From NCBI GenBank assembly GCA_022562275.1, contig JADFPP010000007.1, positions 1-63,353 on the forward strand: a stretch of DNA of 63,353 bases. The letters run 5' to 3'. The position numbers were made by a program, and so were the translations under genes. Of this stretch, positions 11,966 to 49,240 are shown in pieces. The stretch comes from Bacteroidota bacterium (GTDB lineage Bacteria; Bacteroidota; Ignavibacteria; Ignavibacteriales; Ignavibacteriaceae). The notes below the pieces were generated by a model that saw only the letters and a list, made by a program, of their open reading frames with translations, had not been told where the DNA came from and did not search any database. Positions within the stretch are counted from its first letter, which is position 1; every line of letters begins with the position of its first letter.

Positions 11966-12346
11966 ATGAAAATTCAATTAAAAGAATTATTAGAACAAAA
12001 CAAAAATATTAATAGAGGTTTCAGAAAACTTGAAGTTTGGAAAGAAGCAATAGAACTTTTCGCTTTTGTGAGAGAAAAATTAAAAACTTTAGTTAATTTA
12101 TCATTTAAAATTAAAGCTCGAATTGAAGATTCTATTTTTTCTGTCTCATCAAATATTAGTGAAGGATATTGCAGACGATCGCTCAAAGAAAATATTCAAT
12201 ATTTATCAATTGCTCTTGGTTCCTTAGGTGAGAATTACTCACAAATATTTGCATTAAATAACTCAGGAGAGATTGATATTGCCTGGTTTAAAGAATACGA
12301 TAAACTCCATTATTCAATTGATAATAAGCTTATTAAATTGAATTGA
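11966..12346 (+). CDS. four-helix-bundle protein of the 23S rRNA intervening-sequence (IVP) family
   Basis: The all-alpha 126-residue protein has the family signature FRKLEVWKEAIELF at the start, then IEDSIFSVSSNISEGYCRRS and ENIQYLSIALGSLGE in the second and third helices. Homologues include proteins encoded in 23S rRNA intervening sequences and the Avd accessory protein of diversity-generating retroelements. They form pentameric barrels that bind nucleic acid. Here the gene stands alone in an intergenic space between smpB and tyrS, bordered by inverted 8-bp tandem arrays. That suggests a mobile cassette rather than a housekeeping gene. No reverse transcriptase is nearby. Confidence 0.85.
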   Translation: MKIQLKELLEQNKNINRGFRKLEVWKEAIELFAFVREKLKTLVNLSFKIKARIEDSIFSVSSNISEGYCRRSLKENIQYLSIALGSLGENYSQIFALNNSGEIDIAWFKEYDKLHYSIDNKLIKLN

Positions 12347-18728: not shown

Positions 18729-19964
18729 TTACTCATACCTCAATGCATCAACAGGATCCATCTTAGCAGCCGTATAAGCCGGCGCAATTCCAGAGAGGAT
18801 TCCTGTCATTAATGATACTCCGATAGCAATTATAACCGCATCAACCTGTACAGAAGTTGGGATGAACTGATTAACCATCATACTTAGCAGCACCGCTAAT
18901 ATAAGCCCGATAAACCCGCCGGCAAGACAAATTGCTGATGCTTCCATTAAAAACTGCGCAAGAATTGTTCTGCGTTTAGCACCAATTGCTTTTCTTATTC
19001 CTATTTCTCTCGTTCTCTCTCTAACAGAAACGAACATGATGTTCATAATTCCAATTGCACCAACAAAAAGTGAGAGCCCTGTAATAAGTAGTCCGGCAAT
19101 TTGTATAACACCCACCACAGAATTGTAACTATCTACTAACGCATCTTGCTGGTTAACAGAAAAATCATTAGGTTCATCATATTTAAGCCCCCTTATTTTT
19201 CTCATTATTCCCTCCGCCTCAATTTTTGTATCCTCAACTAAAGCAGGGCTTTTAGCACGAACATCAATAGTTACAGTACTTCTATGCATTAATTTAAAAT
19301 TTTTAAAGATGGTTCCGATAGGTACATATACCCTGTTATCGGGATTCCAGGGACCTAGCATAAAACTTCCTTGCTCTACCAAAACACCAATTACTTTATA
19401 GTTTTTACTACCAACCTTAACAGTTTTATCAATTGCATCTCCACGTGGGAATAGTTCTGTAGCTATTTCACTGCCTAATATTACTACTTGCCTGGAAGAG
19501 TTACTTTCCACTTCACTATAAAATCTACCCTGGTCGAAAGTAAAGTTAGTAGTTTTAACATAATCAACATTTGAACCATGTAGAAAAACATTGTCAACTC
19601 TTCTATCTCCAAACTTTACTGTTTGTCTGGAACTAATGGAAGGAGCTACAGCTAAAGGAAGTTTTGCATTTCTTTTGAACTTCTCAAAATCTTCCATATC
19701 AATATTCCGGCGGTTTCTCATCTTCCACCATTCTACGTTTGAGAACCAGGCCCATTTACTAATGTATAGTACATCGGAGCCAAGAGCACTAATACCTTTC
19801 TGGAAAGAATTATCTATACCCTTAATCGCTGTGGACATAAGAACTACTACAGTAACACCTATAATAATTCCTAACATAGTTAGAGCCGAACGAATTTTAT
19901 TCGCCCTTATTGCCCTCAAGGCAATGAACATTCCTTCTTTCAATTCAAATAATATATTTCTCAT
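18729..19964 (-). CDS. MacB-type ABC transporter permease (first of two)
   Basis: It has the same layout as its neighbour: first helix at ~25-45, periplasmic domain (~50-275), and FtsX core with SVRERTREIGIRKAIGA near residue 325 and three helices. The two permeases are clear paralogues with diverged periplasmic parts. An AAGGATG site precedes the ATG. The likely role is mechanotransmission: ATP hydrolysis in the cytoplasm drives the periplasmic domain and pushes substrate through the adaptor and TolC. It is separated from the ATPase gene by a broken IVP cassette, so operon transcription must pass through that insertion. Confidence 0.85.
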   Translation of the reverse strand: MRNILFELKEGMFIALRAIRANKIRSALTMLGIIIGVTVVVLMSTAIKGIDNSFQKGISALGSDVLYISKWAWFSNVEWWKMRNRRNIDMEDFEKFKRNAKLPLAVAPSISSRQTVKFGDRRVDNVFLHGSNVDYVKTTNFTFDQGRFYSEVESNSSRQVVILGSEIATELFPRGDAIDKTVKVGSKNYKVIGVLVEQGSFMLGPWNPDNRVYVPIGTIFKNFKLMHRSTVTIDVRAKSPALVEDTKIEAEGIMRKIRGLKYDEPNDFSVNQQDALVDSYNSVVGVIQIAGLLITGLSLFVGAIGIMNIMFVSVRERTREIGIRKAIGAKRRTILAQFLMEASAICLAGGFIGLILAVLLSMMVNQFIPTSVQVDAVIIAIGVSLMTGILSGIAPAYTAAKMDPVDALRYE

Positions 19965-20038: not shown

Positions 20039-20070
20039 CATATACCATATACCGTATACCTTTATATCCT
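20039..20070. repeat. tandem ATATACC-type repeats at one side of the broken IVP gene
   Basis: CATATACC, ATATACC and GTATACC follow each other, then CTTTATATCC. The word CCGTATACCTTTAT recurs on the other side of the IVP gene in the same orientation. Confidence 0.6.
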
Positions 20071-20233
20071 TTCAATTTTACTTTTCACAAAGTTTATATA
20101 GCCATTTAATATTATTTTCGCTGATTCAATTAAGTTTTCACCTTCCTGCATCAACTCGCCCTTAATATAACCAAAATCATTGCAGCTTAACAGGTGGTCT
20201 TTTAATTCATATAATAAACCCCTGAAAATTCTA

Positions 20234-20255
20234 CCCGCCTGACCGGACGGGCAGG
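20234..20255. repeat. 22-nt imperfect palindrome inserted in the IVP gene (frame-shifting)
   Basis: It runs from CCCGCCTGACC to GGACGGGCAGG and pairs with its own reverse complement at 16 of 22 positions. Its removal joins ttta and taga to give QFYRIF in the host frame. Confidence 0.75.
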
Positions 20256-20295
20256 TAAAACTGAACACCTTCTTTATAATGATACCGTCCATATC

Positions 20296-20313
20296 CCTGC
20301 CTGCGCAGGCAGG
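20296..20313. repeat. 18-nt perfect palindrome inserted in the IVP gene (in frame)
   Basis: CCTGCCTGCGCAGGCAGG is a perfect palindrome. Removing it leaves gaa-gga-tat, which encodes the family consensus SEGYGR. Confidence 0.8.
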
Positions 20314-20590
20314 CTTCAGAAATATTCGCTGTAATACTAACAGATGCTTTTCTTATTTGAATATCTAAATTAAATTTTTCCTCTTTTGGTAACAAGGGTA
20401 TAATTTGCTTATAAAAGAATAATTTTACTTCCCGACATTTAATCCATGCTTTTAAAGAAGTAAAATCTTTATTCCCATGGTAAAATTCGCGTGGTTCATT
20501 TACTATAAAATTTTCCTGCATCGCATCTTTCGTAAAGGAATTATATTCCTCATTTAACATTTGTCCTTACATCCTCATAATATTATTTAC

Positions 20591-20640
20591 AATATAACCG
20601 TATACCTTTATCCCTTTATACCCTTATACCATATACCCTA
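20591..20640. repeat. tandem TATACC-type repeats at the other side of the broken IVP gene
   Basis: The array contains CCGTATACCTTTATCCC, TTTATACCC, TTATACC and ATATACCC in series. The first word repeats one seen on the opposite flank of the IVP gene. Confidence 0.6.
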
Positions 20641-20668
20641 AAAATTAATGAGACTTCCACTAAATCCT

Positions 20669-21388
20669 CTATTCCTCCGAAGAACCAAAATTCTGCATCT
20701 TCCCATTATTAACTATTTCATCACTCTCAATTAATCCATCTTTTAATCTAATAATTCTATTCGCATGTTCCGCAATATATTCTTCGTGAGTAACAATAAT
20801 AATTGTATTTCCTTTTTTGTGAATAACTTCAAAAAGCTGCATGATCTCCTCACCGGTTTTAGAATCAAGGTTTCCCGTTGGTTCATCAGCTAAAATGATT
20901 GAAGGATTTGATACAAGTGCACGTGCAATTGCTACCCTCTGACTTTGTCCGCCGGAGAGTTCACTGGGTTTATGATGTATTCTATCTCCAAGACCAACAT
21001 CAATAAGAGCTTGTTTTGCTTTCTCCCTCCTTACAGCGTATGGGAGACCAGCATATATCAAAGGCAATTCTACATTATGATGTGCATCGGAACGCGGAAG
21101 GAGATTAAATGTCTGGAAGACAAAACCAATCTCCTTGTTTCTAATTTTCGCCAGTTCATTATCGGTCATTGTGCTCACATTCTTTCCTGTAAAATCATAA
21201 ATTCCGGATGTCGGTGTATCCAAACAACCCAGCATATTCATAAGTGTAGATTTACCGGAACCTGACGGGCCCATAATAGCAACATATTCATTTTTATCTA
21301 TTCTAAGAGAAATATCTTTAAGAGCATGAACCTCTTCGGACCCAACCTGATAAACTTTAGATATGTGTTCAATATTAATAATATTCAT
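20669..21388 (-). CDS. MacB/LolD-type ABC transporter ATP-binding protein
   Basis: It powers the export complex. Walker A is GPSGSGKST, the Q-loop follows in [12 protein letters not shown], the signature is [15 protein letters not shown], Walker B is [13 protein letters not shown], and the H-loop is IIIVTHE. The length of about 239 residues is typical. The ATG is preferred; a GTG 12 bases upstream that touches the adaptor stop codon is also possible. Tight coupling to the adaptor gene and paralogous permeases downstream define a MacA-MacB-TolC-like system with separate ATPase and permeases. Confidence 0.92.
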
Positions 21389-21399
21389 TTGATATTCCA

Positions 21400-22698
21400 C
21401 TAATTTTTATTTCGTCTTGAAGTTTTATCTTTATCTTCAACCCTAACCTTAGAACCCTCTTCAAGCTCTCTTGAAATCGCTTTATAGCTGCCTGAAACAA
21501 CATCTTCCCCACCTTCTAAGCCCTCCTTGATTTCAAGGTAATTATCATCGCTTATACCGGCAGTTACTTCAACCATTTTTGTTGTACCTTCTTTTACTAT
21601 GAACACAACTTCTTTTGGTTTTTTTCTCTTTTCTTTTTTATTTTTCATTTTTTCTCTTTTCTCATCCTGATTTTCATTATCGCCGTTTTTCTCAAACTTT
21701 TTAAAATCTACTCTTGCAGTTACACTTTGAATGGGCACACTTATTACATCATACACTGTTTCAGTTTCTATATCGGCGTTGCAGGACATTCCCGGTCTTA
21801 GATTTTCTTCTAACTCGTTAAGTTTAATCTTAACTTCAAAGTTTACAACTTGATCCTGGCTGCCAACGCCTGTTGATTTAGCACTGTTTCCAATTTCAGT
21901 AACAATTCCTTTAAATTCACGATCTCTGAATGCATCTATTTTTATTATAGCGGTATCTCCAATGGAGACAGCAACAACATCATTTTCATCAACTTCCACA
22001 ACTGCTTCCATATTGTTCAAGTTTGCAACAGTCATAATATTTGTACCCTGGGTAAATCCGCTTCCAAGTACTCTCTCACTTAATTCAACATTTAATTGTG
22101 TAACTGTTCCTGTTAATGGTGAAAAAATTGTAGTTTTGTAAAGAGTCTCAAGTACTTCTCTTAATGATGCTTTACTTTGAAGTACATTTGCCTGAGCTTG
22201 TTCGTAGGAAGCTTCAGCACTTAAATAATTGCTTTCGGCGGTTTCTAATTCGGAATCACTTACTAAAGTTTTTTTGTGTAATTCCTTAACTCTCTTAAAT
22301 TCAAGCGTCAGTCTGTTCAGTTCGGCTTCTCTTATTTTTAAAGTTGCTTCTGAGGATTTTAGCGTTGCCTCCAACCTATCTTTTTGAGCTTGATATTGAT
22401 CACCTTTTATCCTAATCAATAAATCCCCTTTGTTAACATGATCTCCTTCTTTAACCGGCAATTCAATTATTTCGCCGGTTACTTCCGGAGTAATTAGCAC
22501 TTTAAATTCCGGGTCTATCGTTCCTGTTGCAGTTACAATTTGGGTAATATCTCTCTTTTCAACTTTCTCGGTCTGCACCAATATTATATCTTCTTTACCT
22601 CCTCCAACAATGGCGATAATGACAAAAATAATTAGCAGCAATCCAAGTCCACCGAAAATAAATAGTTTCTTCTTTGATTTTTTATTTGATTTAGCCAT
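21400..22698 (-). CDS. MacA/HlyD-family periplasmic adaptor
   Basis: It links the inner-membrane transporter to TolC. A lysine-rich N-terminus and one membrane helix (~11-30) are followed by a lipoyl half-motif ([20 protein letters not shown]), a coiled-coil hairpin (~105-185), the second lipoyl half ([19 protein letters not shown]), and beta-barrel and membrane-proximal domains. A long charged Lys/Glu stretch near residues 340-370 is unusual and may be a flexible insertion. At 432 residues it is normal length. AGGAGA precedes the ATG. Confidence 0.9.
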
Positions 22699-26406: not shown

Positions 26407-26583
26407 TAACTGAAGTTACGCAAAAACACCTATAACAGAAAAAAGATCCCGATTTGTCATTCCCACGAACCTGCCTGACGGAAGGCAGGAGTGGGAATCC
26501 ATTTTTTCGTTTATTTTTGCATAGTGGATGCCCGCTTTCGCGAGCATGACATGCAGTTTTACGATTTTGCGTAACTTCAGTTA
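26407..26583. mobile_element. 177-bp MITE-like element with perfect 19-bp terminal inverted repeats
   Basis: TAACTGAAGTTACGCAAAA at the left end is exactly repeated, inverted, at the right end. Between them lie a palindrome (ATTCCCAC...GTGGGAAT) that itself contains a CCTGCC...GGCAGG palindrome (26470-26489), and a second hairpin region (cccgctttcgcgagc). No protein is encoded, so movement would need a transposase supplied elsewhere. The rest of the 26301-26623 gap is plain A+T-rich sequence. Confidence 0.75.
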
Positions 26584-42646: not shown

Positions 42647-42823
42647 GAGGTTGTCTTAAAAATTAAGGTTAAGCCATTTTGAGGAACTTGCCTGCCGGCA
42701 AGTTTACGATAGCTTGCCCCGATTTTTCGAGGAAGCAATCTCCCAAATTCAGAATAAATTTGAGATCACTTCTCCCGACTTTCATAGGGATCGTGATAAC
42801 ACTACACCTTTTGAGACAGTCTC
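42647..42823. mobile_element. 177-bp repeat element with GAGG-TGTCT-type inverted ends
   Basis: The left end GAGGTTGTCTTAAAA and the inverted right end GAGACTGTCTCAAAA match at 12 of 15 positions. The inside holds an ACTTGCC...GGCAAGT palindrome (42686-42703) and further short inverted words, but no gene. The end sequence is related to the element at 33331. The remaining sequence of the 42262-42851 gap is A+T-rich and holds only the upstream motif listed above. Confidence 0.6.
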
Positions 42824-49217: not shown

Positions 49218-49240
49218 ACCCTGCCAACTCCTGGCAGGGT
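49218..49240. terminator. hairpin between two type IX cargo genes
   Basis: ACCCTGCC and GGCAGGGT form an 8-bp stem around aactcct. It lies 25 bases after the minus-strand stop codon. The stem resembles the dispersed CCTGCC...GGCAGG palindromes. A second inverted pair, AAAGTGC/GCACTTT, lies at 49168-49200. Confidence 0.4.

Follow-up and report, generated by a model that had tools for sequence, protein, structure and literature searches.

REPs inside genes are already known. REPs within ORFs, REP families that sit within palindromes and tagged REPs in >80 species from 8 phyla have been described, and the intragenic GTAG/CGTC REPs are short (20–40 bp) multi-copy palindromes, some of which lie within ORFs, DNA-repair and tRNA-synthetase genes among them, and in some cases two to an ORF (PMC3733652). 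Rickettsia palindromic elements (RPE) are in-frame palindromes in likely functional protein genes; those of R. conorii end in CGTC, and RPE-1 is longer than the unit described below (PMC3733652). In RAYT/TnpAREP–REP systems (REPtrons) and IS200/IS605, a HUH transposase that acts on single strands is believed to spread hairpin DNA in trans, and in 2021 the way in which REPs spread was still to be elucidated (PMC8266576). IS elements that target REP palindromes, e.g. ISPpu9, insert into palindromic repeats and have their own transposase (PMC8450116). These statements refer to the portions of the three papers that we consulted.

Here we describe a family of 21-nt palindromes, recognised in a 63,353-nt stretch of DNA from a bacterium of the Ignavibacteriaceae (contig JADFPP010000007.1 of assembly GCA_022562275.1; hereafter the window). 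Like the intragenic REPs, the unit is a short multi-copy palindrome found within ORFs, and like some REP families it is inserted in other palindromes. Unlike them, it carries no terminal GTAG/CGTC, is one identical sequence across many phyla with documented empty sites, and is dominated by one reading frame. Its in-frame insertions recall RPE, from which it differs in being untagged and cross-phylum. Most carriers tested have Y1_Tnp genes, a likeness to REPtrons, whose REPs, however, carry GTAG and associate with the transposase gene; no such arrangement was found for the unit among 131 loci and 37 RAYT ORFs. It shares insertion into palindromic repeats with ISPpu9-type elements, but is only 21 nt long and encodes no transposase. 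The strings CCTGCC and GGCAGG are absent from the main text of PMC3733652, in the portions consulted. Full-text searches of open papers with four DNA strings and wider REP terms returned no description that we recognised as this family, the papers matching its DNA strings being unrelated by title, and nothing was found for LPTGQAG or for REP together with Patescibacteria; the open literature searched yielded no untagged family that consists of one sequence and spans phyla.

The window contains an IVP-family gene between genes for a permease (18729–19964) and an ABC ATPase (20669–21400). The first-pass annotation, made from the sequence alone, had located two palindromes in this gene, and direct reading places both at the same coordinates (Table 1). 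It had also claimed that they split the gene and that their removal restores it without loss of host bases. The second claim was borne out by DNA alignment with eight homologues from related genomes (L044–L048 and L050 at 60–72% protein identity, L051 and L052 at 48–50%), none of which has the same bases at these positions: 8/8 lack exactly the 18 and 22 bases, with zero host bases lost. The breakpoints are ambiguous by one base, because end bases are common to insert and flank. The first claim stands only in part, since the ORF 20231–20560 reads through the 18-nt insert, whose length is a multiple of three, and the frame is shifted by the 22-nt insert only; as it stands, the gene is therefore broken by one insert, not two. 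Two of the eight homologues (L050 and L052) are themselves interrupted by stop codons, and L052 shows a single-base gap a few bases beyond the second insert junction.

Table 1. Features of the window bearing on the palindrome family
Feature	Position	Strand	Basis or context
IVP-family (four-helix-bundle, PF05635/TIGR02436) gene with two inserts	20062..20560	minus	Family matches; homologues L044–L048 and L050–L052 aligned
18-nt perfect palindrome CCTGCCTGCGCAGGCAGG, family member, in frame, read as ACLRRQ	20296..20313	minus	Absent in 8/8 homologues
22-nt imperfect palindrome CCCGCCTGACCGGACGGGCAGG (CCTGCCCGTCCGGTCAGGCGGG on the gene strand), family member, frameshifting	20234..20255	minus	Absent in 8/8 homologues
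Third window copy CCTGCCTGACGGAAGGCAGG	26470..26489		Occupies the loop of a longer palindromic repeat (CATTCCCACgaa / agtGGGAATC)
Possible diverged short member CTTGCCTGCCGGCAAG	42687..42702		Sequence only

The IVP gene is flanked on both sides by similar AT-rich runs (ATACCATATACC / CCGTATACCTTTAT; 20040–20070 and 20595–20645), and such runs also lie 3′ of the stop codon in four of the homologues (L044, L045, L048 and L050). In the other 19 ATPase loci of relatives, searched with 1.5-kb flanks and including two loci that end at a contig end, no IVP match was found (0/19). The IVP gene has, in itself, the appearance of a mobile cassette. Elsewhere in the window, 12008–12307 gives another, distant match to the IVP family (29% identity).

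The two palindromes had been proposed to form one family, and this view holds at the scale of the genome. The genome of the window (3.4 Mb in 148 contigs) has 45 matches to CCTGCC-N(2–14)-GGCAGG, a few of them nested double counts, against 1 for the reversed pattern, and the family occupies about 40 places. Our own-genome set comprises 41 places with flanks, including some doubtful members (e.g. window position 49220) and two loci, L016 and L080, with nearly identical flanks. In the window, the pattern occurs three times against 0.01 expected from dinucleotide shuffles, the match at 49220 being a doubtful member, and the 18-mer with ≤3 mismatches occurs once against 0.00 expected. The consensus, also the commonest form, is CCTGCCTGTCCGGTAGGCAGG, a 21-nt imperfect palindrome present in many copies, as are REPs by their usual description (20–40 bp). 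As single-stranded DNA the consensus folds with z = −3.8 and the 18-nt window copy with z = −2.3, and the 22-nt copy folds weakly (z = −1.6). We collected 122 distinct exact copies from genome and viral collections (133 before near-identical flanks were collapsed), and these show no terminal GTAG or CGTC tag: GTAG stands directly beside the unit in 0/122 on the left and 1/122 on the right, CGTC in 1/122 on each side, and GTAG is found within the 3′ arm of the consensus only. The repeat that flanks the third window copy has partial uninterrupted relatives in loci L012 and L227.

Empty sites bear on the proposal that the palindromes move as discrete units. For 163 copies (the 122 exact ones and the 41 own-genome places), the 25 bases on each side were joined and searched against 1.37 Mb of loci. 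The joined flanks matched an uninterrupted counterpart across the junction in 48/163 cases, compared with 25/1000 random 21-nt removals; intact random 50-mers had another partial match in 67/1000. Inspection by eye showed 7 of the 48 to match other family members and about 9 to match simple or tandem repeats, which leaves about 32. Two empty sites in paralogous repeats are identical throughout, 50/50 bases elsewhere in the same locus for L138 and 48/48 bases for L016 in L088 of the same genome. Homologous genes give the same picture. A TrmH-like gene (PF00588) in the genome of the window contains two further copies, both in frame, and 23/23 aligned orthologues lack the unit at both sites, one of them (L322) differing by three bases at the site that is second in the protein. 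No target duplication was seen at the empty sites of the IVP homologues, the joined-flank matches or the TrmH-like orthologues. MITEs have terminal inverted repeats and a target duplication. The unit differs from MITEs, which are 70–300 bp long (PMC3733652, portions consulted), both in its 21 nt and in its lack of target duplication at empty sites. These data make it almost certain that we are dealing with a mobile family that inserts precisely; neither gain nor loss of a copy was seen between strains. The first of the two sites in the TrmH-like protein holds the unit in the genome of the window, but in the orthologue of the single-contig relative G006 (L309) it holds a palindromic insert of another kind (CCCTCTCCTTCGGAGAGGG plus the bases after it), making this site an apparent hot spot for unrelated palindromes.

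The unit is patchily distributed. With ≤2 mismatches it is carried by 46 of 391 genomes of the class, and the reversed control gave 1 match in one genome. At least 116 stretches of the species-genome collection contain the exact 21-mer; among 80 listed stretches, grouped from their record titles, 40 are from Bacteroidota, 16 from Patescibacteria, 6 from Nitrospirae or Thermodesulfovibrionia and 4 from Ignavibacteria, and the rest comprise 9 from unnamed bacteria, 2 from one Dehalococcoidia MAG and 1 each from Elusimicrobia, Phycisphaerae and Micavibrio. For Dehalococcoidia, Elusimicrobia, Phycisphaerae and Micavibrio the source is a single MAG in each case, and binning errors may explain these occurrences. 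The exact 21-mer also stands in records of named Bacteroidota strains that are not labelled MAG (Arenibacter, Pleomorphovibrio, Aquiflexum and Cognataquiflexum). Contigs of the viral collection contributed 15 stretches; one of 28.8 kb (IMGVR_UViG_3300038551_000082; L220, L222 and L228) contains at least six exact copies, some nested in others and several in open frames. In six loci (L104, L124, L127, L145, L173 and L201), the first five of them Arenibacter sp. P308M17 by title, the unit lies amid CCCTAAAG/GGAGCC of one recurring larger repeat and has apparently been co-amplified with it.

Copies inside reading frames were analysed with long read-through ORFs, i.e. open frames of set length rather than annotated genes. 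GTAG/CGTC-tagged REPs are mostly extragenic; here such ORFs hold 67 of the 163 copies, compared with 64% of random positions, which suggests a mild avoidance of genes. The 58 exact copies that do lie in long frames, once oriented, have the reverse complement on the coding strand in 54 cases and the other orientation in 4. Part of this bias is built in, as the exact 21-mer is open in five of six frames, three on one strand and two on the other; when tested against the expected ratio of about 3:2, which allows for the closed frame, 54:4 still gives p = 2e-8. Among the other 64 copies, those between co-directional genes are split 14:14 (Fisher p 1.2e-5 against 54:4), which suggests that the bias in genes is a property of survival and not of insertion. 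The phases of the 58 copies are likewise uneven, with 34 reading LPTGQAG, 11 PAYRTGR, 9 CLPDRQ, and 2 and 2 in the remaining ones. In the favoured phase, a host codon with C or T as its last base is converted to the synonymous codon with C there, and the insert adds LPTGQAG and leaves the flanking residues unchanged.

Thirty of the 64 distinct ORFs were scanned, recognisable ones being chosen first, and 29/30 gave a Pfam family match at 1e-5. The matches include PurH, TrmD, a tRNA thiolase (MnmA-like), PheRS alpha and beta domains, a class II synthetase core, NAD-dependent DNA ligase, RecJ, SecD/SecF, CbiD and a lipoyl transferase domain. Genes of this sort are usually essential. As with RPE, the insertions are thus in frame in open frames homologous to known families. 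In alignments with PDB entries, an 11-residue gap covers the TrmD insert and a 7-residue gap coincides with the second TrmH insert in protein order. We do not take such alignments as general proof of clean peptide insertion, since the PurH site is a variable loop and the LipB alignment begins after the insert. In G006, where 29 places (49 match rows) were covered, 19 copies lie in long ORFs, several of them in duplicated genes and hence representing fewer independent events, and 18/19 have the same phase (LP..QAG or a close variant). By reading, 4 of these 19 are in the opposite orientation, with a variant base that abolishes the stop. It therefore seems that selection keeps the phase more than it does the orientation. 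Judging from these reading frames, in-gene copies are very probably translated and filtered by selection.

Target preferences were examined in the same sets. Immediately 5′ of the oriented unit stands G in 92, A in 26, C in 4 and T in 0 of 122 copies, i.e. a purine in 118/122, and the base on the 3′ side is seldom A (5/122). No covariation of the left and right flanking bases, as an extended stem would produce, was visible among the 122 exact copies. Flanks that themselves form a stem are enriched: 10/122 exact copies reach a stem score ≥7 with a loop ≤6, compared with 1.0% of random places and 0.5% of swapped flanks, and 10/41 own-genome places reach ≥7 with a loop ≤8, compared with 1.4% of random sites. 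By eye, the insert stands exactly at the stem–loop junction (offset 0 on one side) in 8/10 best cases of both sets. Hairpin targeting as a general rule was rejected, with 112/122 copies outside a recognisable loop; as most copies lie in none, loop targeting is a preference and not a rule. Units nested within units were seen by eye in nine loci (L105, L147, L154, L156, L180, L187, L193, L222 and L228), and copies from unrelated bacteria also stand at the junctions of tandem repeats of about 7 nt (L109, L130, L142, L143, L157, L162, L168 and L174). From hairpin folding, the loop preference, the one-sided base preference and the absence of target duplication, we infer that insertion proceeds through single-stranded DNA.

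A link to RAYT genes, as suggested by the first-pass annotation, is less clear. Such genes are present, the genome of the window having 15 Y1_Tnp (RAYT/IS200) matches, and Y1_Tnp occurs in 45 of 46 carriers compared with 253 of 345 other genomes of the class (carriers were matched by hand across lists). Because Y1_Tnp is so common in the class (298/391), this association could reflect genome size or mobile load. Among 50 carrier genomes reached through loci, 44 have Y1_Tnp and 6, all MAGs and possibly incomplete, gave no match. A profile built from the six own-genome RAYTs only, and hence narrow, found no RAYT in the 131 loci with the exact 21-mer. By eye, eight own-genome RAYT loci have other palindromes beside the gene. 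Across 37 RAYT ORFs (5 further loci gave no ORF with the profile), the unit lies within 700 nt of 4, three in G018 and one, a weak match, in the genome of the window; in the clearest G018 case, with the unit on both sides of the RAYT, it lies inside the RAYT's own flanking palindromes. RAYT as a proven partner was rejected on these grounds (other palindromes beside RAYTs, 4/37 proximity and 6/50 carriers without Y1_Tnp), and the link is not established. No cognate mover gene was found in the 131 exact-copy loci or the 50 carrier genomes.

How, then, did the two palindromes come to lie in the IVP gene? We think it probable that both are copies of a non-autonomous mobile element of very small size, a REP-like hairpin of 21 nt that inserts by way of single-stranded DNA. 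Its most serious competitor is spread by repair without any transposase, in which hairpins on single-stranded DNA are cut close to the loop and a small fragment able to fold into a hairpin, or a template switch, is pasted in. Such repair would account for inserts that so often stand exactly at the stem–loop junction where flanks form a hairpin (the 8/10 best cases of each set), for copies at short-tandem-repeat junctions, and for the failure to find a mover gene in 131 loci and 50 carrier genomes. Capture should, however, yield varied sequences and ragged ends, whereas one fixed 21-nt sequence is seen, with a 5′ purine in 118/122 copies and no gain or loss in the flanks, all of which point to a sequence-specific enzyme; we consider repair unlikely for these reasons.

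GC-rich hairpins such as terminators are common between genes, and some copies could serve as terminators, so that the copies might be unrelated hairpins of independent origin and the alignment gaps deletions elsewhere. This is very improbable given an exact 21-mer in at least 116 stretches, far beyond chance, and copies within the reading frames of PurH, TrmD and tRNA synthetase families, and the precise empty sites in genes and repeats already contradict it. Less credible still, to the point of being negligible, is an assembly, adapter or binning artefact of metagenome genomes. Most listed carriers are indeed MAGs, and phyla represented by a single MAG could reflect contamination, but the unit also stands in the records, not labelled MAG, of named strains of the four genera given above, its variants in genes keep the reading phase, and the relative G006 is a single contig.

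For the mobile hairpin, a RAYT-like single-strand transposase is the favoured mover, a candidate to which we give an even chance. A HUH transposase of the RAYT/IS200 type, working in trans, would cut the hairpin from one strand, or copy it off, and join it to an exposed single strand, e.g. a hairpin loop, after a purine. Copies that terminate proteins early or distort them would then be purged by selection. Of the two in the IVP gene of the window, one would have gone in at a frame that was tolerated, and the second would have broken the gene. A bolder reading, possible if on the doubtful side, is that the 21-nt hairpin is itself a mobile unit, among the smallest known, which passes unchanged between phyla (Bacteroidota, Patescibacteria, Nitrospirota and others) and gets into single-stranded hairpin loops by means of a sequence-specific enzyme. 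Its constancy would then come partly from harmless translation, as three frames of one strand are open and LPTGQAG leaves its neighbours intact.

The fixed 21-nt sequence, clean empty sites, 5′ purine rule, measurable loop preference and carriers among named strains make movement directly testable. Identical seven-residue inserts, apparently translated, occur in central-enzyme genes of many bacteria, with consequences for gene annotation, for the calling of pseudogenes and for protein evolution. If the bolder reading is true, a 21-nt hairpin would seed new seven-residue segments in essential proteins.
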